Shown piece after piece: positions 5,599-24,624 of a DNA stretch of 39,837 bases. Below the pieces are notes generated by a model that saw only the letters and a program-made list of their open reading frames with translations, made no database searches and was not told the origin of the DNA. Source of the stretch: Desulfobulbaceae bacterium (lineage in GTDB: Bacteria > Desulfobacterota > Desulfobulbia > Desulfobulbales > Desulfocapsaceae); contig WBUQ01000023.1 in assembly GCA_008933635.1 (NCBI GenBank), forward strand, positions 1-39,837, read 5' to 3'. The stretch's first letter is position 1. Every line of letters begins with the position of its first letter. The position numbers and the translations under genes are program-made.

Positions 5599-6010
5599 AT
5601 TACCTCCCTTTCAGTTGCGAATGAGATTGAATTGGCGTGGTGAGAGCGCAATCAGCCAGTGTAACCACTGCATCTTCGGTTTGTTTGGCTGGCGGATCGA
5701 TAGGTGTATTCACTAACTCATGATGATTGCAGGTAATCCTCAGTATATGCCTTTTCATTTCACCCGTCAATGGTCCTCGATATGGAATATTGCACAGATA
5801 CAGGAGGATGGTTTGTCTTGATGAATCATGCAATTGCGTGATATTGTTGCCCATCGGATTGACATGAATACTTGCCGCCGCGGAAGGAATTCAAGCATGG
5901 TTGTCGAATGGGCGGCAGGGTTGCTGTGTGACAAAGGTATGTAGGATATGGTCATCCATTGCCCATATGATACGAGAAAAATGGAAGGCGGCGGATAAGT
6001 GGAGGAGAAG
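5599..6010. other. Divergent intergenic region yjbQ / aroC
   Basis: This 412-bp stretch holds the leftward promoter and about 135-base leader of the yjbQ operon, and on the right the aroC ribosome binding site GGAGGAGA (6001-6008). A TATGAT box (5966-5971) is a possible aroC -10 but has no convincing -35 at the right distance. A minus-strand ORF of 84 codons (5600-5854) runs through it, but the yjbQ promoter lies inside it, so I do not count it as a gene. A 20-codon minus-strand ORF at 5611-5673 is treated among the findings. Confidence 0.6.
5742..5770 (-). promoter_or_regulatory. Sigma70-type promoter of the yjbQ-ubiD-rluB operon
   Basis: Read on the minus strand: TTGACG (5770-5765, 5/6), a 17-base spacer, and TATACT (5747-5742, 5/6). 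This is the best promoter match in the window. The expected transcription start is near 5735, giving a leader of roughly 135 bases before the yjbQ start codon. Confidence 0.7.
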
Positions 6011-7081
6011 ATGGCAGGAAATACTTTCGGCAGAGTTTTCCGTGTTACGACCTGGGGAGAATCGCATGGAACCGCGGTCGGGGCTGTTATCGATGGCTGT
6101 CCAGCCGGGATGACTCTCGACCTGGAAAAACTGCGGGAGGAGATGGTGCGGAGACGGCCAGGTCAGGGAGGGGCTTCAAGCCCGAGAAAGGAGCCTGACC
6201 AGGTCGAGATCCTCTCGGGGATTTTCACCCCTGCTGGCGAGATGGCTCCCAGAACAACCGGAACGGCCCTAGCGTTGATCGTTTACAACAAGGATGCACA
6301 TTCAAAGTCGTATGACAACCTGCGAGATGTCTTCCGTCCAGGTCATGGAGATTTCACCTACCAGGAAAAATACGGAATCCGCGACCACCGTGGCGGAGGG
6401 CGAGCCTCGGCGAGAGAGACGGCAGCCCGGGTTGCTGCCGGCGCCGTGGCGGCTCAGGTTTTGCGTCACCACGGCATAACGGTTCTTGCGTATACCGTGG
6501 CTCTGGGTGGAGTCAGGGCTGTCATCCGCGATTACGGGGAGATTGGCAATAACCTGTATTGCTGCCCGGATCCCGAAGCAGCCGAGCGTATGGAACAACG
6601 GATTCGTGAGGTCAGGAGCCAGGGTGACACGGTAGGCGGGGTTGTCGAATTGCGGGCATCCTGCCCGGCAGGTCTCGGCGAACCTGTATTCGATAAGCTC
6701 GAGGCAGATCTGGCGCATGGGCTGATGTCCATCGGAGCGGTTAAAGGCGTCGAATTCGGGGCCGGATTCGCGGTTGCCGATTTGCTGGGATCAGAAAACA
6801 ATGATAGTATGCTCAAAGAGGGCTTTGCCAGCAATAATGCCGGCGGTATTCTGGCCGGGATATCGAGTGGTCAGGAACTGGTGATCCGGGTTGCTGTAAA
6901 GCCGATCCCTTCTATAGCGGCTGAGCAGTGGACGATCAATCGTGCCGGTGAGGAGGTGAAGATAAAGGTGGGCGGTCGCCATGATATTTCTGCCATTCCC
7001 CGGATTATTCCTGTATGTGAGGCAATGGTTCGTCTGACGCTGGTGGATCATCTCCTTCGCCAACGATGCAGTCGCCTCTGA
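6011..7081 (+). CDS. aroC: Chorismate synthase
   Basis: A 356-residue enzyme for the last shikimate-pathway step, the FMN-dependent anti-1,4 elimination of phosphate from 5-enolpyruvylshikimate-3-phosphate. The three family signatures are present: GESHGTAVGAVIDGCPAG near the N-terminus, KYGIRDHRGGGRASARETAA (around residue 120), and NNAGGILAGISSGQ around residue 275 with the conserved Gly-rich loop. Length is typical. The frame is open from a GTG at 5999, but MAGNTFGRVFRVTTWGES at 6011 is the usual family start and GGAGGAGA at 6001-6008 is its ribosome binding site. The next gene starts 4 bases after the stop, so aroC is the first gene of a long rightward unit with the carbohydrate genes. Confidence 0.97.
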   Translation: MAGNTFGRVFRVTTWGESHGTAVGAVIDGCPAGMTLDLEKLREEMVRRRPGQGGASSPRKEPDQVEILSGIFTPAGEMAPRTTGTALALIVYNKDAHSKSYDNLRDVFRPGHGDFTYQEKYGIRDHRGGGRASARETAARVAAGAVAAQVLRHHGITVLAYTVALGGVRAVIRDYGEIGNNLYCCPDPEAAERMEQRIREVRSQGDTVGGVVELRASCPAGLGEPVFDKLEADLAHGLMSIGAVKGVEFGAGFAVADLLGSENNDSMLKEGFASNNAGGILAGISSGQELVIRVAVKPIPSIAAEQWTINRAGEEVKIKVGGRHDISAIPRIIPVCEAMVRLTLVDHLLRQRCSRL

Positions 7082-7085
7082 GAAA

Positions 7086-8753
7086 ATGATGAAAAAGAGA
7101 GTGCACAACCAGGCCATCCGCAAGATCTGGATGCTCACCCGTGAATACGGAGAGATAGCCGGAGCCGGGGGCGTAAAGGATGTCTGCAAACAGTTGGCGG
7201 AAAGTTTCGCTGCCAGGAAAACCAGCGAAGTTCGTGTGGTGCTGCCGCTTTATGGGTTCATCGATCCGGCTAAACTGGGATGCAGCCTGCTGCAGGATAA
7301 TCTCGCACAGCGGCCGCTCGAATTTCCAGTGGACATGTACTACGCGATGGAGGAGCGGAGGGAATATGTCAGGGTCTGGACCTGCACGACAGCCGGTGTG
7401 GTACTGTATCTTCTGGAAGCACTACGCTTCGGAGAAAAACGAGACGTCTATACGTATACCAGCGATGAAGAGCTGACGGATCGATGGAAACACGCCGGAT
7501 CGGGGCATTACGACTATTTCGCGATGAATGTGCTTCTGCAGAAGGCTGCTTTGGAGTTGATGATCCTGCTGGGTGAGCATCCGGATGTCATTCACTGCCA
7601 TGACGGGCACACTGCGATCGTGCCTGCACTTATCAGCGAATGCCCCGGTTACAGGAGTTACTTCCGACGGACCGGCTGCCTTGTCACCCTGCATAATGCA
7701 GGAATTGGATATCATCAGGAGGTCGCCGACCTGCCGTTTGCCCATGCTATCACCGGCCTCCCTTGGTCTTTCATTGAATCAAATTGCCTCAATGCAGCCT
7801 TTGATCCGTTCCTTGCGGCCAGTCATTATGCCCTGCTGAACACGGTCAGTGAGAATTATGCCCGGGAACTGCAGAAAACCGACAACGACCGTTTGACTGG
7901 TTGGCTGGGGCATTTCCTGGCCGATCGCGGAGTGCGCATTGAAGGTGTCACCAATGGTATCGATCCCGCCGACTTCAACCCGTCGTTGCCGGAGCAAGCT
8001 GGAATTGCCGCTGCCTTCGATCCGGCAGACCCCGTTGATTCGCTCGCCGGCAAACGGCTGTGCAAGAAGTCGCTTCTGGCGGCGATACGAACGAGGAGAT
8101 TGCCCGATGACCTGGAAATCGCCGGATCACTGGAAGAAAACGAGAAATTGCCGATTTTTACCTTTATTGGTCGTTTAAGCAGGCAGAAAGGAGTTGATAT
8201 CCTCGTTTCGACGCTGACGACCTTTATGCTGCGTCAACCCGACTGTCAGGCGCTATTTCTCGGCAGCGGCGACAGGATGGAGGAACAGCGGATCCGGCGC
8301 CTGGTTGCCATGGAAGGATTGGCCGGTCGAATCTGCTATTTGCGGGGGTACAGCCCGAGGGTTGCCAACCAGGTTTACGCGGCCGGGGATTTCTTTGTCA
8401 TTCCTTCAATGTACGAGCCCTGCGGTTTGACAGATTATATCGCCCAGCTGTTTGGCAATATTCCAGTGGTTCATCATGTCGGAGGACTGGTCAAGGTCGT
8501 TGACGGCAAAACCGGTATCGCTTACAGGGGCGGTCCGGCAGAACTGGAAGTGGCCCTGGAACGGGCGATTGCCCTTTTCTCTGCACCAGAGGCGTTGCGC
8601 AGGATGCAGCGGGAAGCGGTCGCCCGGATCCGAGAAAAACATACATGGGATCAGGTGATGCAGGCGTACCAGCAGCTGTACGAAAAGGCCAGGCTGCAGC
8701 GATGGCTCAAGAATCCGGCTTACACCGACAACCTGGCGGCAAATACATTATGA
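7086..8753 (+). CDS. Glycogen/starch synthase-like glycosyltransferase (GT5)
   Basis: A 555-residue GT-B glycosyltransferase of the GlgA family. N-terminal domain: REYGEIAGAGGVKDV at residues 19-33, DVIHCHDGHTAIVPAL and TLHNAGIGYHQ with the conserved His. C-terminal nucleotide-sugar domain: TFIGRLSRQKGVDIL, IPSMYEPCGLTDYIAQLFG with the two acidic residues of the E-x7-E-like motif, and HHVGGLVKVVDGKTGIAY. These are GlgA signatures. A notable difference is that the KTGGL motif, whose Lys is implicated in ADP-glucose binding in E. coli GlgA, aligns without a gap to GAGGV, so the Lys is replaced by Gly26. The protein is also about 80 residues longer than E. coli GlgA. It may still be an alpha-glucan synthase, but donor and acceptor are uncertain. 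ATG at 7086 or 7089 is possible; neither has a strong Shine-Dalgarno. gap follows after 16 bases. Confidence 0.85.
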   Translation: MMKKRVHNQAIRKIWMLTREYGEIAGAGGVKDVCKQLAESFAARKTSEVRVVLPLYGFIDPAKLGCSLLQDNLAQRPLEFPVDMYYAMEERREYVRVWTCTTAGVVLYLLEALRFGEKRDVYTYTSDEELTDRWKHAGSGHYDYFAMNVLLQKAALELMILLGEHPDVIHCHDGHTAIVPALISECPGYRSYFRRTGCLVTLHNAGIGYHQEVADLPFAHAITGLPWSFIESNCLNAAFDPFLAASHYALLNTVSENYARELQKTDNDRLTGWLGHFLADRGVRIEGVTNGIDPADFNPSLPEQAGIAAAFDPADPVDSLAGKRLCKKSLLAAIRTRRLPDDLEIAGSLEENEKLPIFTFIGRLSRQKGVDILVSTLTTFMLRQPDCQALFLGSGDRMEEQRIRRLVAMEGLAGRICYLRGYSPRVANQVYAAGDFFVIPSMYEPCGLTDYIAQLFGNIPVVHHVGGLVKVVDGKTGIAYRGGPAELEVALERAIALFSAPEALRRMQREAVARIREKHTWDQVMQAYQQLYEKARLQRWLKNPAYTDNLAANTL

Positions 8754-8769
8754 TCTACAGGAGGCGACC

Positions 8770-9774
8770 ATGACAGTAAAAATAGGAATCAACGGATTTG
8801 GGCGGATTGGCCGGAATATCTTCAGAGCGATGAGCAAGGACCCTGCCTTTGCCGATATTGAAATTGTTGCCATCAATGACCTGACTGATAACGCCACCCT
8901 TGCTCATCTGCTGAAGTATGATTCGGTGATGGGGACCTTCGACAGGGATGTGGTTGCCGATGAGAAGGGCATTCTGGTTAACGGGCGTCACATTGCCGTT
9001 ACCAATCAGCGGAACCCTGCCGATATTCCATGGGGAGATGCCGGTGCCGAATATGTGGCCGAATGCACAGGCTTCTTTGTTGATAGTGAGACCGCCCAGG
9101 CACACATTGATGCCGGTGCCAGCAAGGTGGTCATTTCCGCTCCGGCAAAAGGAGGTGTTAAAACCTTTGTAATGGGAGTGAATGAGGACGAATACGACCC
9201 CGTCACGCATCATATCGTTTCCAATGCCTCCTGTACCACCAATTGCCTCGCTCCGGTCGCCAAGGTCATCCTCGATAACTTCGGCATCACCAGGGGATTG
9301 ATGACCACCGTACACGCCTATACCGGTGACCAGCGGCTGCTTGATTTCCCGCACTCGGATCTGCGTCGGGCCCGGGCGGCAGGTTTATCGATGATACCGA
9401 CCAAGACTGGTGCCGCGGCGGCAGTCTCTCTTGTGATTCCAGTACTCAAAGGCAAGTTCGATGGGCTGGCCATTAGGGTGCCGACACCAACGGTTTCGAT
9501 CGTGGATGTGGTCATGGAGGTTGAGCGGGAGACGACCGTCGACGAAGTCAATCAGGCCCTGCGGGGTGCAGCGAACCGTTATCTCGGATACACCGATCTT
9601 CCTCTTGTTTCCATTGATTTCAAGGGTGACAGTCATTCTTCGATAGTCGATGGCAAGTGCACCAAGGTCATCGGCAGGACGGTCAAGGTGATGAGCTGGT
9701 ACGACAACGAGTGGGGCTATTCCAACCGGATGCTTGATCTGATCCTCCATATGGAGGCGAATAAACCGCTCTGA
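8770..9774 (+). CDS. gap: Glyceraldehyde-3-phosphate dehydrogenase, type I
   Basis: A 334-residue phosphorylating GAPDH, interconverting glyceraldehyde 3-phosphate and 1,3-bisphosphoglycerate in the cytoplasm. The Rossmann start INGFGRIGRN, the Asp of AINDLTD (favouring NAD over NADP), the catalytic Cys155 in SNASCTTNC, the His of TTVHAYTGDQ and the C-terminal SWYDNEWGYSNRM are all present. A clear Shine-Dalgarno, AGGAGG, lies ahead of the ATG. It sits between the GT5 synthase (16 bases) and the dikinase-like gene (28 bases), all on the same strand. This fits a carbohydrate reserve or lower-glycolysis unit, though gap could simply be a housekeeping passenger. Confidence 0.97.
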   Translation: MTVKIGINGFGRIGRNIFRAMSKDPAFADIEIVAINDLTDNATLAHLLKYDSVMGTFDRDVVADEKGILVNGRHIAVTNQRNPADIPWGDAGAEYVAECTGFFVDSETAQAHIDAGASKVVISAPAKGGVKTFVMGVNEDEYDPVTHHIVSNASCTTNCLAPVAKVILDNFGITRGLMTTVHAYTGDQRLLDFPHSDLRRARAAGLSMIPTKTGAAAAVSLVIPVLKGKFDGLAIRVPTPTVSIVDVVMEVERETTVDEVNQALRGAANRYLGYTDLPLVSIDFKGDSHSSIVDGKCTKVIGRTVKVMSWYDNEWGYSNRMLDLILHMEANKPL

Positions 9775-9802: not shown

Positions 9803-12800
9803 ATGGACACACTGATTACCGAGCCTGGGATCGAATCCGATGCCCTGCGGGCCAACCTTCTGGAGACTGCCGGGGAGGTCGTGATCGCTGACGACCTGCG
9901 GTTGATCCTCGACATTTTTAAAAAATACAAGGGAATCCACGCAGGACTGGAAAAGTTGCTCTACGAGATCTGCCATCCTTTCCGGAACTGGAATCTGATT
10001 CTCCCGCAGCTCCGCAGCTTCGTCCTGAAAAACAGCAGCCATATCCTGGGGCATCAGCATGGACCGGATGTGCTCAGGCTGTTCTCCCGGATATTCCTCG
10101 AGGTCATTGAAGACTCCCGTCGCAGTTCCGGGCTGCTCGACCAGGTTGCAGGGGCGCTGGTGCTCTGGCTGGAGAAGATGACCTCGCTTTTCACCGTTGA
10201 CGATCTCTGCCGGTTTGCCGACCCGTTCAATGAGCTGCTTGATAATCTCGGCCATGACGGGGAAGAGGGTAACCCGATCCTGACCCATATCGTCCACGGT
10301 CAGCATCCCGTGAAAAAATTCGCCACCAGGATCCTTGACCTGGTTGGTGATGGAGTGCCGGGATTCAATGTATTTCCGCTTGCCAGATTCGTCTGCACCG
10401 TCCAGAGACAGACGTACCGCTACTGGCTGCAGGAGGATGATCCCCTGCCGTGGTTTCTCGATCGCTGCGGGATCGAGGCGGAAAGTTTCAGCTCGGGAGC
10501 GATCTTTGACAGGATATCCCATGCATCGTTGCGGATGCACATGACGGCACTTGAAGATCTGGATCTGGAGGGAGATCCTCTGGGCAGCCTCCGCAGGCTT
10601 CTGGAATTGCCGACCGGCGTCGATATTGTAAAATATTACAGGGAAATACCAAGTCTTCTCGTCGAGCAGTTGCAGGACCGCTACAGTCTGGAAACGCAGC
10701 GTTCACCACTCTATCACGGGGTGGAGAACGAAAAGCTGCTGTTTCTGTTCAAGATCATGGATACGGCCGGCCTCCACCTGATCCATGAGGAGATGTTGCG
10801 GGAGATCAACCGCAGTCTGGTTCAACTGATCCGCCAGCAGAGTTTTGAAGAGATTGAGGAGTTTCTGCTCATCACCTTCAAACTGCTGAAGGTCAATGTC
10901 CGCAAATACCCCCACACCTCGCTGCAGTGCATCCAGGTTCTGGGCGGGGAAGTTTTCGATCGCGGCAACAGCAGGATGGTCGAGGCCTTTCTCTGGGGGG
11001 TGGTCCGCTTCGGCTTCCAGCACGCCAACGTCACCGGCGTGGACGAGGACTGGCAGCCATTGGCCAATCCTGCCCACCTCAGTAATATCAGGGTCTGGCT
11101 GCATCTGATCATGCGTGAGCCGAAATGGTGTTCGACGCTGTTTTCCGCCCTGATCATCCATCTCAAACTCTCCGGCACCTGCGTCAAGGATACCGATCTG
11201 TTCCAGCGTGATATCACCGAACTGCTGAATCACCCTATCGAACCGATATACAACCTGGCCAAACAGTTCACCAAGCTGATGCCGGTGTTTTACAACGAGA
11301 TCGGGTCGGAAGGTGAGTTGCGGGACGTCTCGACCGAACTCGACGAGATCCACCGCCGCAAGGACGTGCTGATCCATTTTCTGCGGAAGCAAGGCCATGT
11401 AGAAAGCTCAAACCTGATCGTCGATTTCATTCAGGCCATCTTCCTGTTCTGGAAGACCAGGGATCAGAGCCTTCTCCAGCCTTTTCTGCCAATTGAGGTC
11501 TACAAACAGGTGCAGTTGAGCGGTCCGTTCATCGATGACCAGCACCTGCTGCTGCAGCGGCTCTGGGAGGAGATACCGCTGAAGAGGATACAGGATCTGT
11601 TGACCATCGACCAGGCGGTGATGACCGAGTTCCTCGGTCGTCAGGAGGACCTCGAATCGCTGGAAGTCCGCCGGTTCGAACTGCTGGTCAAGATGTACCG
11701 GCTCTTGTACAAGAAGTATATGCTTGGGTTCCAGGAGCTGCGGTCGGAGTTGCTGCAGGCCGTGCACGACGGATTTCCTGAGATGGAGAAGTTGCTGGTC
11801 AATCTCGAGCACTCAGATACCGAGAGCTGCCTCGAGGCCCTGCTTGATGCCCTTGAAGGATTGAAGGAGATCATTCTCTCCCCCGAAAAGTTTGAAGCCC
11901 GTGAGGATATCTACTACAAGCGCCATATCGCCGTCGATATCCCCTCGGTTTACGGTCGGTACAAGGAGCGCAAGTTCGACGCCCTGAGCCTGACATTTCG
12001 CCTGGAGAACCTGGCCAACATCTACCTGGAGAAACTGTCGGAGACCGTTAACCTGACCTTTATCACCCAGGCCACTTTCTTCAGCATCGTCCGATCGATC
12101 AAGCTGTTCATGCAGGCCCTGCGGATCGACGGCATCACCTCGCGCCGCCTGAATACCTACCTCTCCCTGCTAGCCAGTTCGCTCAAGGTCCGCCGGTTTT
12201 CCTACACCCAGTATCTCGATATCTTCCGGGGCTTGTCGGAGGGGGTAAAGGATGTCATCTATGCCTATTATACCAACATCCACCAGAACAACCTCTCGCT
12301 GATCATACCCCAGATCGGCCGGGAAAATCTGCTGCCCAAATTCCAGAGCCTCTACGACGACGGCGAGGTCGGTACATCGGTACAGCGGTTGTCCGAGGCT
12401 TTCCTCCGTGACCTGATCGCGTCTACCTTCGGCCTGCAACACCTTGACAATTTCATCCTGCGGATCATCCAGACACTGGAAAACCAGAAAACCATCCTGG
12501 ACCAGAACCGGCTTGATCTGCTGATGACCTACAATCCCGACAAGGCCCTCTCGCTGCTGCACCGGCTCAATCCGTTCACCCACAACCTCATCCATCTCGG
12601 CAACAAGGGGTACAACCTGGCCACCCTGATATCGGATGACAAGCCGGTGCCCCCTGCCTTTGTCATCACCACAGAGGTCTTCCGCTGCCGTGATATCGTC
12701 TTCGGCTTTTCCCAGGCCAGAGAGGATTTCATGCGTCGGATCAGATCCGCCCTCAACGAAGTGGAACGGCTGACCGGCAAGGTCTTCGGTTCTCCCGATG

Positions 12801-14077
12801 CCCCCCTGCTGCTCTCCGTTCGCAGCGGAGGGGCCATTTCCATGCCGGGGATGATGGCGACGGTGCACAATGTCGGTTTCAACGAGGACCTGATCGAAGA
12901 ATATGTCGAGCGCCACGGGAATGCCTATCTGGCCTGGGACAATTACCGGCGGTTCCTGCAGTCTTGGGCTATGGTTTCCGGCATGGAGCGCGAGGATTTT
13001 CAGGTGCTGATGGACGAAGCCAAGGCCAGGTACCAGGTGAGCCTGAAACGCCATTTCCTGCCTGAACAGATGCGCGAGTTGGCCTTGTCGTACCAAAAGC
13101 TTATCCGAAAGCGCGGGCTTGGCATTCCGGATGACCCCTGGCTGCAGTTGGTCAACGCCATCGAATTGGTACTGGATTCCTGGGATACCGAAAAGGCCAT
13201 CGACTATCGAAAGATCATGGATGTCTCCGATGCCTGGGGTACGGCAGTGATCGTCCAGGCCATGGTGTTCGGCAACCGCAGCGATACTGCCGGTTCCGGC
13301 GTGGTGTTCACTTCCCATCCCTATCGTAAGGTCCACCGGGTCGCCCTCTGGGGAGACTATGCCTACGGCGACCAGGGGGAGGATATTGTCTCCGGACTGG
13401 TCACCAGTTGTGCAGTTTCGCTGGAACAGGCGCAGCTTGACGGCCGTGCGGCGGAGGATACCCTTGAGCGTCGTTTTCCGGCCATCTATGCCAGGCTGCT
13501 GGAGATATCCCGGGAGCTGGTCTATGAAAAACGCTGGAATCCCCAGGAGATCGAGTTTACTTTCGAAGGACCTGAACCGCAGGATCTCTTCCTGCTGCAG
13601 ACCCGGGATATGATAACCATCAAAAAGAAGGAGCATCTCAATGTTTTTGTTGAGAGTGCTGAACTCGAACAGTCCCATCTCGGTCAGGGAATCGGAGTGT
13701 CAGGCTCGGCTCTTTCTGGTCTGGCTGTCTTCACTGAAGAAAATATAAACGAACTGCGCCGCCGATTTCCCAAGACGCCGCTGATTCTGGTCCGCCAGGA
13801 TACGGTTCCGGAAGATATCAAGGTAATAAACATGGCGGACGGCCTGCTCACTTCGAGGGGGGGGCAGACTTCACACGCCTCCGTTGTCGCCGTCCGACTG
13901 GAAAAAACCTGCGTCGTTGGCTGCAAGGCATTGAGGGTGTATGATACGGGGCAATATTGCGAAATAGGCGGGGTTCGTCTCGGCTTCGGCGACGAGGTTT
14001 CCATCGATGGCAGAACCGGTGCAGTCCTGCGCGGGAAGCACCTAATCCGTGAGGAATTTCATATCTTGCCGATATAG
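9803..14077 (+). CDS. PPDK-like dikinase (ATP-grasp plus phosphohistidine domain) with a 900-residue N-terminal extension and no PEP barrel
   Basis: A 1424-residue protein. Residues ~930-1290 match the N-terminal half of pyruvate phosphate dikinase (PPDK): LGNKGYNLATL (from 932), PVPPAFVITTEV, SVRSGGAISMPGMM, QAMVFGNRSDTAGSGVVFTS, GDQGEDIVSGLVT and EIEFTFEGP with FLLQTRDM, so the nucleotide-binding site appears intact. Residues ~1305-1410 are the swivelling phosphohistidine domain with SRGGQTSHASVVAV; the catalytic His is H1358, preceded by Thr-Ser as in PPDK. The protein ends 66 residues later, so the C-terminal PEP/pyruvate TIM barrel is absent. Residues 1-~900 are predicted helical, rich in Leu/Glu/Arg, and I recognise no domain in them. 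It probably forms a phosphohistidine from ATP and passes the phosphate to an acceptor other than pyruvate, or to a barrel encoded elsewhere (inference). No frameshift is seen. Annotated relatives may simply be called pyruvate phosphate dikinase. Confidence 0.85.
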   Translation: MDTLITEPGIESDALRANLLETAGEVVIADDLRLILDIFKKYKGIHAGLEKLLYEICHPFRNWNLILPQLRSFVLKNSSHILGHQHGPDVLRLFSRIFLEVIEDSRRSSGLLDQVAGALVLWLEKMTSLFTVDDLCRFADPFNELLDNLGHDGEEGNPILTHIVHGQHPVKKFATRILDLVGDGVPGFNVFPLARFVCTVQRQTYRYWLQEDDPLPWFLDRCGIEAESFSSGAIFDRISHASLRMHMTALEDLDLEGDPLGSLRRLLELPTGVDIVKYYREIPSLLVEQLQDRYSLETQRSPLYHGVENEKLLFLFKIMDTAGLHLIHEEMLREINRSLVQLIRQQSFEEIEEFLLITFKLLKVNVRKYPHTSLQCIQVLGGEVFDRGNSRMVEAFLWGVVRFGFQHANVTGVDEDWQPLANPAHLSNIRVWLHLIMREPKWCSTLFSALIIHLKLSGTCVKDTDLFQRDITELLNHPIEPIYNLAKQFTKLMPVFYNEIGSEGELRDVSTELDEIHRRKDVLIHFLRKQGHVESSNLIVDFIQAIFLFWKTRDQSLLQPFLPIEVYKQVQLSGPFIDDQHLLLQRLWEEIPLKRIQDLLTIDQAVMTEFLGRQEDLESLEVRRFELLVKMYRLLYKKYMLGFQELRSELLQAVHDGFPEMEKLLVNLEHSDTESCLEALLDALEGLKEIILSPEKFEAREDIYYKRHIAVDIPSVYGRYKERKFDALSLTFRLENLANIYLEKLSETVNLTFITQATFFSIVRSIKLFMQALRIDGITSRRLNTYLSLLASSLKVRRFSYTQYLDIFRGLSEGVKDVIYAYYTNIHQNNLSLIIPQIGRENLLPKFQSLYDDGEVGTSVQRLSEAFLRDLIASTFGLQHLDNFILRIIQTLENQKTILDQNRLDLLMTYNPDKALSLLHRLNPFTHNLIHLGNKGYNLATLISDDKPVPPAFVITTEVFRCRDIVFGFSQAREDFMRRIRSALNEVERLTGKVFGSPDAPLLLSVRSGGAISMPGMMATVHNVGFNEDLIEEYVERHGNAYLAWDNYRRFLQSWAMVSGMEREDFQVLMDEAKARYQVSLKRHFLPEQMRELALSYQKLIRKRGLGIPDDPWLQLVNAIELVLDSWDTEKAIDYRKIMDVSDAWGTAVIVQAMVFGNRSDTAGSGVVFTSHPYRKVHRVALWGDYAYGDQGEDIVSGLVTSCAVSLEQAQLDGRAAEDTLERRFPAIYARLLEISRELVYEKRWNPQEIEFTFEGPEPQDLFLLQTRDMITIKKKEHLNVFVESAELEQSHLGQGIGVSGSALSGLAVFTEENINELRRRFPKTPLILVRQDTVPEDIKVINMADGLLTSRGGQTSHASVVAVRLEKTCVVGCKALRVYDTGQYCEIGGVRLGFGDEVSIDGRTGAVLRGKHLIREEFHILPI

Positions 14078-19033: not shown

Positions 19034-19459
19034 ATGATAACGATGGACATCACGTTGCTGTTTCAGATTGTGAACATGATTATCCTCATGTTTCTGCTCA
19101 ACGGGGTTCTTTACAAGCCTGTAAAGAAGATCCTGAAGGACAGGGCTGAAAGGCAGCAGGGCATGCAGGGCGAGATCGCAAAATTTGAAAAAAATGCGCG
19201 GCTTCGCCAGCAGGAAGTAGACGAAAAAATGGCAAAGGCGTCGGGAAAGGCCAAGGCAGCTCTTGATTCCGCTCGGGCTGAAGCTCAGGCGGCCGGAGAC
19301 CAGAAACTCGGGGCTATCAAGACTGAGGCTGAGGATGGCAAGAATAAGCAGCTTGCCGAGATCAGAGCACAGATCGGGAGTGCCAGGGCCAGCCTTCAGG
19401 CTAATCTTGACGGATTCGCAAACGATATGGCCAGTAAAATTCTGGGAAGGAGCCTGTAA
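19034..19459 (+). CDS. atpF': ATP synthase b' subunit
   Basis: A 141-residue stator subunit of F-type ATP synthase. One N-terminal membrane segment (ITLLFQIVNMIILMFLLNGV, residues ~6-25) is followed by LYKPVKKILKDRAER and a long charged helix, as in b-type subunits, ending MASKILGRSL. A shorter start at 19043 (MDITLL) is possible. It begins the operon, with the second b gene two bases downstream; two unequal b subunits form a heterodimeric stalk, as in cyanobacteria and many deltaproteobacteria. Confidence 0.93.
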   Translation: MITMDITLLFQIVNMIILMFLLNGVLYKPVKKILKDRAERQQGMQGEIAKFEKNARLRQQEVDEKMAKASGKAKAALDSARAEAQAAGDQKLGAIKTEAEDGKNKQLAEIRAQIGSARASLQANLDGFANDMASKILGRSL

Positions 19460-19461
19460 AG

Positions 19462-20196
19462 ATGAGAGGAGTGAAGCAAGTAGCCCGAATGATGGTTCTG
19501 GTCACGGCGGCACTATGGTTTGCCTTGTCTGCTGGAACTGTCTGGGCGACTGAACAAGCGAGTCATGAAGCAACTGGTGCAGTTCAGGAGGCAACGTCGG
19601 CGCAGGGACATGGCGAAGCCGCTGCTGGAGCAGGACATGCGGTTGCCGCCGAGGGAGGTCATGGTGCAGCTGCTGAGGGGGGACATGGTGCTGCTGCAGG
19701 TGGCAGTCTCTCCGCAGCGAAGTTGAAAGATCTCTTCTGGCGTGTTGTCAACTTTGTTGCCCTGATGATCATCCTGGTCAAGTTCGGAGCCAAACCCATC
19801 GGCGCCGGCCTTGCTGGCAGACAGAAAAGAATTCGTGAAGAAATAGAGGATCTGGAAGCAAAAAAAGTGGCTGCTGAGAAATCCTACAGAGATTTTGAGG
19901 CCAAACTTGCAACTGTTGAAAAAGACATCGACAAGATTGTTGAAAAAGCCGTGGCCCAGGCTGAACTTGAGAAAGTAAAGATTCTCGAAAGGGCGGAGCA
20001 GGCCGCCGCGGATATCAAGCGACAGGCCGAGATGGCCGTTCAGAAGGAGATCATGGAAGCGAAGCGGTCTCTGAAGGATGAAGTTGCAGATAAGGCTGCT
20101 GCAATGGCTGAAGCACTGATCGTTAAGAATCTGACGCCTGCAGATCAGGTGAAGATTGTCGAAGATTATTTAGCTAAAGTGGGGGCCGTACAGTGA
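19462..20196 (+). CDS. atpF: ATP synthase b subunit with N-terminal signal and His/Gly/Ala-rich insert
   Basis: A 244-residue b subunit, much longer than E. coli AtpF (156 aa). Residues 1-29 look like a secretion signal (MRGVKQVARMMVLVTAALWF, cleavage near VWA). Residues 30-81 are an Ala/Gly/Glu/His-rich stretch with His at 35, 50, 59, 67 and 75, and an exact 8-residue tandem repeat AAEGGHGA (62-69, 70-77). The ordinary b subunit starts at ~84 with a membrane helix (LFWRVVNFVALMIILVKF) followed by the peripheral helix up to the delta-binding end. After cleavage the insert would lie in the periplasm (inference). AGGAG at 19446-19450 serves the ATG, and the stop overlaps the GTG start of atpH by 4 bases. 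Confidence 0.93.
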   Translation: MRGVKQVARMMVLVTAALWFALSAGTVWATEQASHEATGAVQEATSAQGHGEAAAGAGHAVAAEGGHGAAAEGGHGAAAGGSLSAAKLKDLFWRVVNFVALMIILVKFGAKPIGAGLAGRQKRIREEIEDLEAKKVAAEKSYRDFEAKLATVEKDIDKIVEKAVAQAELEKVKILERAEQAAADIKRQAEMAVQKEIMEAKRSLKDEVADKAAAMAEALIVKNLTPADQVKIVEDYLAKVGAVQ

Positions 20197-20738
20197 AACA
20201 GACTATCCTCGCGCGAAGATACGCCAAGGCGCTTTTTACCGTTGGCAAGGAAAAGACTACCTTTGAGGAATACAACCAGATACTGCAGGGTGTGGCAGAA
20301 CTGTATGTTTCCAATCCTGAAGTTGTTGATGCGTTGACTAACCCACTGTATCCTATCGATATAAAAGAAAAAGTCATGGATGGGATGATCAGGTCCATGG
20401 GTGTCGACAAGATCATGGGTAATTTTCTCCGTCTGCTGGTTCAGAAAAAACGAACTGAAATTCTGCCGGAGATAGCTGAAGAGTTTCAGGTCATGGTTGA
20501 TGACGAAAAGAATATCAGCCATGGCAATGTCATTTCTGCAATTGAGCTGAGCGCCGATTTGCAGGCAAACGTCCAGGCCACATTAGAAAAGTTGACAGGC
20601 AAGAAGGTGAAACTGACAACCAGTGTGGATCCATCGATTATTGGCGGAATCATAGCCAAGGTCGGCGATCTTGTATTGGATGGCAGCATTAAGACACAAC
20701 TTGCAGGTTTAAAAGATTCCATCAAGGGGAGAGAATAG
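20193..20738 (+). CDS. atpH: ATP synthase delta subunit
   Basis: A 181-residue OSCP/delta subunit linking the b stalk to the F1 head. It starts MKQTILARRYAKALFTVG, which matches the family start (ARRYAKAL), and ends with the VDPSIIGGIIAKVGDLVLDG signature near residue 150. The start codon is GTG at 20193, overlapping the atpF stop as GTGA, so translation is coupled. The atpA ATG follows the stop directly. Confidence 0.96.
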   Translation: MKQTILARRYAKALFTVGKEKTTFEEYNQILQGVAELYVSNPEVVDALTNPLYPIDIKEKVMDGMIRSMGVDKIMGNFLRLLVQKKRTEILPEIAEEFQVMVDDEKNISHGNVISAIELSADLQANVQATLEKLTGKKVKLTTSVDPSIIGGIIAKVGDLVLDGSIKTQLAGLKDSIKGRE

Positions 20739-22262
20739 ATGCAGATCAAAGCCGAAGAGATTAGCCAGATCATCAAGGATCAGATTGGAGAGTACGAGAC
20801 AAGCGTTGATTTGAACGAAACCGGAACCGTCATATCGGTTGGTGACGGTATTGCTCGTGTATACGGTGTGCAGAACTGTATGGCCATGGAGCTCCTGGAG
20901 TTTCCCGGTGGAATCATGGGCCTTGCCCTCAATCTTGAGGCAGACAACGTCGGTTGCGCGATCTTGGGCAACGTTTCGAACATCAAGGAAGGCGATATAG
21001 TCAAGCGAACCGGTAAAATCGCCGAGGTTCCAGTCGGACCCGCAATGCTTGGACGTGTTGTCGATGGTATTGGACAGCCAATCGATGGTCAGGGACCGAT
21101 CAAAACTGATCTCTATGCAAAAATCGAAGTCCTTGCGCCAGGCGTTATTGCCCGTAAGGGCGTTCACGAGCCGTGCTATACCGGTGCAAAAGCGGTTGAC
21201 GCGATGACTCCTGTCGGACGCGGCCAACGTGAGCTCGTGATCGGCGATCGTCAGATTGGCAAGACGGCCCTGTGTGTTGATGCGATCATTGCGCAGAAGG
21301 ACACGGACGTGCACTGCATTTATGTTGCCGTAGGTCAGAAAAAATCCACCGTTGCCCTGGTTGTCGAGGCACTGAGAAAACATGGGGCGATGGAATACAC
21401 CACGGTAGTAGCGGCCTGTGCTTCCGATCCGGCCCCAATGCAGTACATCGCCCCATTCGCAGGTTGCTCCATGGGCGAGTACTATCGCGACAACGGCAAA
21501 CATGCCCTGATCATCTACGACGATCTTTCCAAACAGGCGGTCGCTTACCGCGAACTCTCCCTCCTGCTCCGTCGGCCTCCTGGACGTGAGGCGTATCCCG
21601 GGGATATTTTCTTCAACCACTCACGTCTCCTTGAGCGTGCCGCAAAGGTGAATGATGCTCTCGGAGCCGGGTCCCTTACCGCTTTGCCGATCATCGAGAC
21701 CCAGGCCGGTGATGTTTCCGCGTTTATCCCGACAAACGTTATTTCGATCACCGATGGCCAGGTATACCTCGAGCCGAACCTGTTTTTCTCCGGTGTCCGC
21801 CCAGCCATCAACGTCGGTCTCTCCGTTTCGCGGGTAGGTGGCGCTGCACAGGTAAAAGCGATGAAGCAGGTAGCTGGAACCCTGCGCCTCGATCTAGCCC
21901 AGTATCGTGAGTTGGCTGCGTTTGCCGCCTTCGGTTCCGATCTCGACGCTGCTACCCAGGCAAAGCTGACCCGCGGCGAACGACTTGTCGAGATTCTCAA
22001 ACAGCCCCAGTATCAGCCGTTGCCCATGGAAAAACAGGTGACGATCATTTACGCGGGATCGAATGGCTTCCTCGATAAATTGCCGGTGAATACTCTCGCT
22101 GACTACGAGAAGGAACTCTATTCCTATATCGAGTCCAACGATCCCTCGATCTTCTCAGATCTGAAGGAAAAGAAAGAGTTTACCGCCGAGATCAAGGAGA
22201 AACTCAATAAAGCACTGACCAGCTTTGGTGAAACGTTCAAGGCAACAAAAGGTCTCAACTAA
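20739..22262 (+). CDS. atpA: ATP synthase alpha subunit
   Basis: A 507-residue non-catalytic F1 subunit. The start [16 protein letters not shown] is followed by the beta-barrel domain, the P-loop GDRQIGKTA with K175 (the same number as in E. coli), and the alpha/beta signature [14 protein letters not shown]. The preceding AAGGGGAGAG is a good ribosome binding site inside the end of atpH. There is no gap between the atpH stop and this ATG. The length and motifs are normal. Confidence 0.98.
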
Positions 22263-22281
22263 TTCTGGATAGGTCCAAACT

Positions 22282-23154
22282 ATGCCGAGCTTAAAGGAAG
22301 TTAAAACGAAGATCCAGGGTGTCAAAAAGACATCACAGATCACCAAGGCCATGAACATGGTCGCTGCGGCAAAGCTACGTGGTGCTCAGGAGAAGATGGA
22401 AGCATTCCGTCCTTATACGCAGAAATTTAACGAGGCCATGTCCAATCTGTCTGGAGGAGCGACAACCGATCAGTTTCCCTTGATGGAGAAACGGGAAGTG
22501 AAATCCGTCGAGCTGGTTGCTGTCACTTCTGACCGAGGCCTGTGCGGTTCCTACAATGCGAACATCATCAAACTTGCATTGAAAAAGGCCAAAGCCTATG
22601 AGGACGAGGGGAAGAAGGTCACCTTCGTCTGCGTGGGAAAGAAAGGTTTTCAGGCCCTCAACAAAACCGGCAAGGTTAGAAAAAAATACACCGACATCAT
22701 GGCCAGTTTCCAGATGTTCAACGCCCGTGAGGTAGCTACTGATCTTGCCGACAATTTCCTCAAAGGCAACAGTGACAAAGTTGAGATTCTTTATGGGGAG
22801 TTCCGCTCGGTAGCTGTTCAGGTGCCCACATTCTCTGCATTTCTTCCCGTTCAGCCTGTTGAAGCCGCTGGACAGGAGAAGACCAAGAAGATCTCTGGGG
22901 ACTACATCTACGAGCCCTCTACCGAAGAGATTATGGATGTGTTGCAACCGCTCTACCTGAATGTCATCGTCTACCAAGCCATGCTGGAGGTAGGTGCGAG
23001 CGAGCATGCGGCGAGGATGACTGCGATGGACAACGCTACCAGTGCCTGCAAGGATATCGTGGCCAACCTGACCATTGTGTACAATAAGGCCCGTCAGGCC
23101 GCCGTTACCAATGAATTGATGGATATTGTGGGCGGTGCCGAGGCCCTTAAATAA
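22282..23154 (+). CDS. atpG: ATP synthase gamma subunit
   Basis: A 290-residue central-stalk subunit. The N-terminal helix LKEVKTKIQGVKKTSQITKA and the C-terminal signature EHAARMTAMDNATSACKDIV are typical, and SDRGLCGSYNANI (~80-92) is the conserved central segment. It lies between atpA and atpD, 19 bases after atpA. There is no recognisable light- or redox-regulation insert as in chloroplasts. Confidence 0.98.
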   Translation: MPSLKEVKTKIQGVKKTSQITKAMNMVAAAKLRGAQEKMEAFRPYTQKFNEAMSNLSGGATTDQFPLMEKREVKSVELVAVTSDRGLCGSYNANIIKLALKKAKAYEDEGKKVTFVCVGKKGFQALNKTGKVRKKYTDIMASFQMFNAREVATDLADNFLKGNSDKVEILYGEFRSVAVQVPTFSAFLPVQPVEAAGQEKTKKISGDYIYEPSTEEIMDVLQPLYLNVIVYQAMLEVGASEHAARMTAMDNATSACKDIVANLTIVYNKARQAAVTNELMDIVGGAEALK

Positions 23155-23196
23155 TTATTTGAAATTTGCTAATCACACACATCTAAGGAGGGGTAA

Positions 23197-24624
<1,428 letters not shown>

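Follow-up and report, generated by a model that had tools for sequence, protein, structure and literature searches.

A barrel-less PPDK-like protein and its probable pairing with a long glyceraldehyde-3-phosphate dehydrogenase in Desulfobacterota

A gene from a Desulfobulbaceae bacterium raises the question of what a protein might do when it keeps the two front domains of pyruvate phosphate dikinase (PPDK), ends before the barrel that serves phosphoenolpyruvate (PEP) and pyruvate, and carries some 900 additional residues at its N-terminus. The gene lies in a stretch of 39,837 nucleotides (contig WBUQ01000023.1 of assembly GCA_008933635.1, positions 1 to 39,837), which is called the window here. 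Its product is called the dikinase throughout. Our tentative answer, to which we assign a probability of roughly 0.38, is that the protein is an AMP-forming dikinase that works at the step of glyceraldehyde-3-phosphate dehydrogenase (GAPDH), partnered with gap2, a long form of that enzyme, and that its N-terminal module binds a different acceptor, most likely 3-phosphoglycerate. The parts of the gene are as follows.

9803..14077, + strand: dikinase gene, 1424 residues, ATG start (open reading frame calling, Pfam, sequence relatives)
9803..12562, + strand: N-terminal module, residues 1-920 (AlphaFold model; Pfam, NCBIfam and PDB sequence searches)
11003..11482, + strand: residues 401-560, mean column identity 0.71-0.81 per block (family alignment)
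11903..11962, + strand: low-confidence loop, residues 701-720 (AlphaFold models, family alignment)
12596..13609, + strand: predicted ATP-grasp nucleotide-binding domain of PPDK type, residues 932-1269 (Pfam, NCBIfam, PDB sequence relatives, structural alignment)
13670..14038, + strand: predicted phosphohistidine swivel domain, residues 1290-1412 (Pfam, PDB sequence relatives, structural alignment)
13874..13876, + strand: codon of the putatively phosphorylatable H1358 in the TSHA motif (His in 140/140 covering rows)

The C-terminal third of the protein resembles PPDK closely. A Pfam scan at E <= 0.001 places PPDK_N at residues 975-1211 (2e-27) and the PEP-utilizers mobile domain at 1326-1406 (3.3e-17), and finds no third domain, that is, no PEP/pyruvate barrel (PF02896), no PF05524 and no carbohydrate-binding module (CBM). 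The best solved sequence relatives are PPDKs, with residues 932-1412 aligning to residues 18-508 of the C. symbiosum enzyme (1kbl, E 1.6e-73). Two AlphaFold models were made from the window and named-locus sequences, one of residues 1-920 (mean predicted local distance difference test score, pLDDT, 78.5; predicted template modelling score, pTM, 0.61) and one of residues 225-1424 (78.3 and 0.57, respectively). Residues 913-1421 of the latter superpose on PPDK residues 2-518 (1dik, Z 31.3, root-mean-square deviation (rmsd) 11.4 over 437), which puts the end of the dikinase near the point at which the barrel starts in PPDK. Another PPDK matches equally well (5lu4, Z 31.3, rmsd 5.7 over 454), rifampin phosphotransferase (5hv1, Z 16.9), PEP synthase (Z 16.0) and HpeI (Z 15.1) are weaker matches, and Foldseek likewise puts PPDKs on top. 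NCBIfam yields matches below cut-off only, with PPDK models best: the equivalog TIGR01828 scores 349 bits against a cut-off of 843.45, and NF004531/PRK05878, a 534-position model that is named PPDK and appears to describe half-PPDKs, scores 278 bits against 456.

The catalytic apparatus of this half is retained throughout the family. In an alignment of 146 rows (145 non-identical relatives plus the window protein, with C-terminal positions covered by fewer), K935, R1007, E1251, Q1266, R1268, T1356 and H1358 are kept in all covering rows (140 to 145 rows). We take these residues to match, in position and role, K22, R92, E323, Q335, R337, T453 and H455 of PPDK. At the position of PPDK D321, 140 of 141 rows have Glu. 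Because the catalytic residues are kept in every covering row, the kinase half is, judging from the alignment, under strong selection. A preliminary description of the locus, made from the window sequence, had judged the nucleotide-binding and TSHA domains to be catalytically complete and had argued that the protein, which ends 66 residues after H1358, could not act alone as a normal PPDK. Both points hold: the conserved residues are consistent with an intact kinase half, and no PF02896 domain follows the His.

Residues 1-920 are predicted to be almost entirely helical, with one hairpin at 700-721 that is present in the model of residues 1-920 and not in the model of 225-1424. This module has no Pfam match at E <= 0.001 and no NCBIfam match, and the best E from profile searching against PDB sequences is 0.84, in agreement with the earlier statement that these roughly 900 residues are helical and carry no recognised domain. 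Foldseek and VIA-align return mostly solenoid rows (importins, CAND1, separase) at template modelling scores of ~0.12. The best solenoid match has Z 10.3 at an rmsd of 14.9, and the VIA-align match is good over residues 4-501 only. The first ~500 residues thus look alpha-solenoid-like in the model, an arrangement that is common among helical models and says nothing on function. With VIA-align good over 4-501 only, and with the modest pTM values given above, no new fold is claimed for the module. A PEP/pyruvate barrel concealed in residues 1-920 was also considered, and is rejected on the helical model, the solenoid matches and the PDB profile search.

Across the whole dikinase, conservation peaks in blocks 441-480 and 481-520 (mean identity 0.81). 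Among 29 polar N-terminal positions that were inspected, 23 are identical in 146/146 rows, namely H425, D463, T464, D465, E503, R507, D514, E515, R528, K529, H532 and E534 within residues 401-560, and K638, K706, R707, H708, Y717, Y720, E722, K724, R733, E735 and Q803 beyond them. The other six (N428, R430, R519, S535, D806, H827) differ in one or two rows, being identical in 144 or 145. This invariance extends down to relatives with 38 % overall identity, and the polar set resembles a ligand-binding or catalytic site. Conservation is also enriched where the models are least certain. In the loop at 701-720, identity reaches at least 97 % at 12 of 20 positions, including K706, R707, H708, Y717 and Y720. 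Of the residues in internal loops with pLDDT <50, 25 of 64 belong to the >=97 % set, compared with 76 of 829 elsewhere (p 1.4e-9; adding both termini gives 26/83 vs 79/837, p 2e-7). Because these loops are conserved and polar and lack confident structure, they suggest a site that becomes ordered by a ligand, the swivel domain or a partner. The earlier proposal that the N-terminal part binds the acceptor is therefore retained in a slightly wider form, as a likely acceptor or partner module.

The relatives form a real family of colinear proteins with 38-89 % identity. In the named loci the C-terminus falls at window residue 1424 wherever the contig reaches that far, and in the distant loci it falls close to 1424. 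The N-terminal 920 residues match 129 places in the named collection, and the best 80 of these 129 loci were used; these 80 come from Desulfobulbus, Desulfoprunum, Desulfopila, Desulforhopalus, Desulfocapsa, Desulfofustis, Desulfocicer, Desulfamplus and others. Whole-genome searches were restricted to 297 genomes sampled across the phylum Desulfobacterota and 58 genomes sampled from the order of the source organism. With the N-terminal 920 residues as query, a colinear dikinase gene was found in all 58 genomes of the order sample, its own included, and in 84 of the 297 across the phylum, yet the N-terminal two thirds of its product match no Pfam or NCBIfam model. No dikinase match was found among PLSDB plasmids at E 1e-5. 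A few copies have broken frames: the N-terminal part is split in two open frames in G051:C9:32220-34929 and G120:C1:682947-685590, and G042:C39:7797-10589 carries an in-frame TGA within it. These breaks reflect frameshift, assembly error or decay.

A clue to function may come from gap2. This long GAPDH has ~420 residues, about 80 more than gap1, the canonical GAPDH encoded beside the dikinase in the window, and it scores below the type I GAPDH cut-off of 367.2 (331.7 bits for the copy at the distant locus L149 and 329.6 for the copy of the source genome). The Cys, His and Asn motifs of GAPDH are kept, and a Gly-Arg pair stands in place of the Asp of canonical NAD-dependent GAPDH. We take this Asp to be the ribose-binding residue and assign the roles of the motif residues on the same footing; the substitution suggests that gap2 uses NADP(H). 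The additional segments are conserved in patches only, as judged by eye. In the source genome, gap2 lies at L176:3448-4695 on contig C5, about 0.5 kb from the phosphoglycerate kinase gene (pgk).

With a search cut-off of 1e-85, set to part gap2 from canonical GAPDH, the same 297 genomes contain the dikinase in 84 cases, gap2 in 85 and both in 83 (Fisher p 2e-70, a value overstated by the relatedness of the genomes). In the order sample, gap2 is present in 55 of 58 genomes. Six families with mixed occurrence (f16, f24, f25, f47, f63 and f68), read by eye, show gap2 in 15 of 16 dikinase-positive and in none of 19 dikinase-negative genomes. The two genes need not be linked. Of the 83 genomes, 20 have them far apart or on separate contigs, among them all 12 sampled from the order of the source organism, although contig ends may hide linkage in part of these 20. 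Six genomes of the order sample that consist of one or two contigs (G008, G016, G018, G025, G040, G047) have the genes clearly apart, and in another genome of the order (G045) they adjoin. Pairwise distances of the two proteins correlate with r 0.89, and with a partial r of 0.87 given phosphoglycerate kinase (PGK), the latter a value that none of 2000 permutations reached (n=41), though the permutation ignores relatedness. Among 11 genomes with the genes apart, the correlation is 0.96, or 0.92 after removing PGK. The control is imperfect, in that the dikinase-PGK correlation given gap2 is still 0.47 and PGK may have its own transfer history. We regard it as probable that the dikinase and gap2 are paired.

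Gene neighbourhoods also lead to GAPDH. The genes upstream of the dikinase in the window are as follows.

8770..9774, + strand: gap1, canonical type I GAPDH, 334 residues, 28 bp upstream of the dikinase gene (Pfam, NCBIfam)
7086..8753, + strand: GlgA-like glycosyltransferase of family GT5 (Pfam, NCBIfam)
5999..7081, + strand: aroC, chorismate synthase, which starts an apparent aroC-glgA-gap-dikinase run (open reading frames, Pfam, NCBIfam)

The spacers within this run are 4, 16 and 28 bp. The preliminary description had named a glycogen-synthase-like gene as the neighbour of the dikinase; glgA is indeed close by, but it is gap that directly adjoins the dikinase, with glgA one gene further. Neighbours were counted by tblastn where the locus extends 3 kb or more in both directions, a condition that left 44 of the 80 named and 19 of the 20 distant loci. 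A GAPDH gene lies within 2.5 kb of the dikinase in 35/44 named and 18/19 distant loci, and glgA within 3 kb in 33/44 and 1/19, respectively. A simple gene caller, which missed gap in L069, L070, L084 and L153, gives 32/44 and 17/19 for GAPDH and 32/44 for glgA in the named loci. A survey of both neighbours had been proposed, and its outcome is divided: gap proves to be a conserved neighbour, and the glgA link is lost in distant relatives. Four distant loci (L149, L151, L152, L154) share the gene order gap1, dikinase, gap2, pgk, tpi, secG, and in six others (L155, L161-L164, L166) the long GAPDH is the only GAPDH near the dikinase. In these distant loci gap2 was named by NCBIfam, pgk of L149 by PF00162 and the other genes by eye. 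In several distant loci the cluster has a particular upstream context, with hpf, ptsN, rapZ, an EIIA gene and rimI in L151 and L154 and a similar run that includes rpoN in L152; an rpoN/hpf/ptsN/rapZ/EIIA run directly precedes the GAPDH-dikinase cluster in L157 and L158 as well.

How might such a pair work? By the chemistry of PPDK, ATP would pyrophosphorylate H1358 with release of AMP, and the gamma phosphate would pass to phosphate or water. The phosphoryl group left on the His would then be carried by the swivel domain to the N-terminal module, whose invariant region is the candidate acceptor site. If 3-phosphoglycerate is the acceptor, the product would be the acyl phosphate 1,3-bisphosphoglycerate, to be reduced by gap2. 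Run in reverse, the reaction could recover ATP from AMP and pyrophosphate. We infer the dikinase activity, the small-molecule nature of the acceptor and the acceptor's identity alike. An acyl-phosphate kinase together with a reductase of GAPDH fold is a recurrent pair, as in PGK with GAPDH and aspartokinase with aspartate-semialdehyde dehydrogenase. Because the constant partner of the dikinase is a GAPDH, and because such kinase-reductase pairs reduce carboxylates via an acyl phosphate, 3-phosphoglycerate would be the likeliest acceptor. The fully specified reaction, a phosphoglycerate dikinase that converts ATP and 3-phosphoglycerate (with phosphate or water) to AMP and 1,3-bisphosphoglycerate (with pyrophosphate or phosphate) and passes the product to gap2, is more doubtful than the broader proposal, and we consider it somewhat unlikely in exactly this form.

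Several observations weigh against a dikinase acting at the GAPDH step. Of the 84 dikinase-positive genomes, 82 have PGK, so nothing missing needs replacing, and in 8 of the 20 distant loci pgk itself falls within the sequence examined. The pairing is not strict: across the phylum one genome has the dikinase only (G168) and two have gap2 only (G062, G133), all <80 % complete; three genomes of the order sample have the dikinase without gap2 (G014, G034 and G035; 94, 84 and 99 % complete); and the family f20 has gap2 in two of its three genomes and the dikinase in none of them. Protein binding would be a natural role for the first half of the module if its solenoid-like model is correct. Finally, the barrel-less dikinases HpeHI (PMC12167813) and rifampin phosphotransferase act on hydroxyls, and no carboxylate acceptor was met in the literature consulted.

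Replacement of a missing glycolytic enzyme was evaluated separately and rejected. Phosphofructokinase (PF00365) is found in 265 of the 297 genomes, with two copies in the source genome, and PGK in 283, the source genome among them, although the PGK matches include partial and weak ones (e.g. G075, G284). Only two of the 14 genomes without PGK carry the dikinase (G229 and G252, in 950 and 290 contigs).

The strongest competitor to the acceptor-phosphorylating dikinase, and one that we rank as nearly as likely, is a regulator of gap2, in which the phosphohistidine state would read ATP/AMP or pyrophosphate and the solenoid would bind gap2, or the protein would phosphorylate it, to set flux between glycolysis and gluconeogenesis. 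There is a precedent in VadK (Rv1127c), a half-PPDK of mycobacteria and other actinobacteria that is described as autophosphorylating on His and co-precipitating with enzymes of the adjoining pathway, with binding to methylcitrate synthase proposed (PMC13400623). Near one-to-one co-occurrence with one GAPDH subtype, even when unlinked, suits a dedicated partner, as might the additional length of gap2 and the alpha-solenoid matches of the N-terminal half, for all that their arrangement is common and the best of them superposes loosely. However, the invariant N-terminal set is dense, polar and loop-enriched, and in our judgement resembles a pocket more than a docking surface, and the conservation of the additional gap2 segments is patchy.

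The remaining explanations are far less probable. A glucan or sugar dikinase resembling glucan/water dikinase, the acceptor class that the glgA neighbour had suggested, is improbable: glgA is frequent beside the dikinase in the named loci, and, of the 72 dikinase-positive genomes from outside the order, 69 have a GT5 glycogen synthase (dikinase-positive genomes alone were counted), but the link fails in the distant loci, GT5 was not found in the other three genomes and is weak in several more, and the Pfam scan found no CBM. Less probable still is a split PPDK or PEP synthase in which the protein forms one subunit and the barrel is encoded elsewhere. Both PPDK front domains are present, and in a genome that is 96 % complete a gene could have been missed; however, the sole PF02896 match of this genome lies inside a complete PEP synthase of 817 residues, which leaves the separately encoded barrel of the preliminary description without a candidate, and the recurrent neighbours examined in distant loci (by clustering and eye, without a barrel search) are no barrels. 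An ATP-driven substitute for enzyme I (EI) of the phosphotransferase system (PTS), phosphorylating HPr or EIIA-Ntr, is largely refuted. We take the swivel domain to be homologous to that of EI (PF00391), and ptsN and another EIIA gene, named by eye, stand upstream in several distant loci. EI was found in 276 of the 297 genomes, and the dikinase occurs in 17 of the 21 without it (20 observed, the source genome among them, and one, G341, inferred from its absence in the positive list). Yet HPr was found in only one of these 21 genomes, and neither HPr nor PF05524 was found in the source genome. Because HPr was not found in 20 of the 21, the dikinase evidently persists where no PTS exists, EI and HPr having been lost together, and in L167 and L168, whose genomes have neither EI nor HPr, the ptsN and EIIA clusters were not seen while the dikinase stays.

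The architecture differs from those of related enzymes. PPDK (EC 2.7.9.1) agrees with it in the nucleotide-binding and phosphohistidine domains, their order and the kinase residues, but the present protein differs in its missing barrel, its 920-residue N-terminal module, the Glu at D321 and its TIGR01828 score. Rifampin phosphotransferase likewise joins an ATP-grasp and a swivel His to an acceptor domain that does not serve pyruvate, and places that domain between the two; here the swivel directly follows a PPDK-type ATP-grasp, and the corresponding model NF041857 scores 25.5 bits against a cut-off of 999. The glucan, water and phosphoglucan, water dikinases (GWD, PWD) pass the phosphoryl group of their His to a non-pyruvate acceptor, and in them the swivel precedes the ATP-grasp and a CBM is present. 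The half-enzyme logic is shared with the protein described here, in which the ATP-grasp precedes the swivel and a CBM was not detected. PTS enzyme I differs in having both an HPr-binding N domain (PF05524) and a barrel, which the dikinase lacks. HpeHI, CreHI and PpsAB are two-component small-molecule dikinases that also combine an ATP-grasp and a swivel His with a non-pyruvate acceptor domain, which in HpeH is joined to the swivel domain (PMC12167813); in the present family the putative acceptor module lies N-terminal to both. VadK shares the PPDK front half without a barrel, and a gene near the pathway served, but is described as having the two front domains only and partners in the methylcitrate cycle (PMC13400623), whereas here a conserved 920-residue module is added.

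Barrel-less dikinases such as VadK, rifampin phosphotransferase (PMC4844700), and HpeHI and its relatives are thus already known; the new features are the N-terminal module, its placement ahead of the kinase half and the pairing of the protein with gap2. No paper describing the family was found in the open-access literature, subscription journals being mostly outside this coverage, and passages of a review of the PEP-pyruvate node make no mention of it (PMC8100219). The near-constant co-occurrence with one GAPDH form suggests that central metabolism contains a step or switch that has gone unrecognised. If, as an AMP-forming kinase, the protein makes or consumes a phosphate at the triose level, the textbook GAPDH/PGK pair would have, in a major group of anaerobes, a third member so far overlooked. 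A phosphoglycerate dikinase would provide a second, strongly driven entry into lower gluconeogenesis, standing to PGK as PEP synthase stands to pyruvate kinase, and in the reverse direction it could let sulfate reducers regain ATP from the AMP and pyrophosphate that sulfate activation produces. A regulator would be another half-PPDK, after VadK, turned into a metabolic switch. Under either reading, gap2 is the named partner of the dikinase.

The source genome encodes six more PPDK_N proteins of 870-1109 residues without a Pfam PEP barrel (L171:3854-6961, L171:9951-13277, L172:4382-6991, L173:3759-6866, L174:4142-7087 and L175:7932-10967), two of which are 89 % identical copies. A simple pattern finds no TSHA-like motif in any of the six, and the L175 protein matches a receiver domain weakly, at less than the gathering score. 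Compared with these paralogues and the PEP synthase of the same genome, the N-terminal module gives no profile match and only blastp pieces at E 0.37 and 0.80. Elsewhere in the window, ATP synthase genes at 19034-24624, including two adjoining b/b' subunit genes, lie downstream of alaS.

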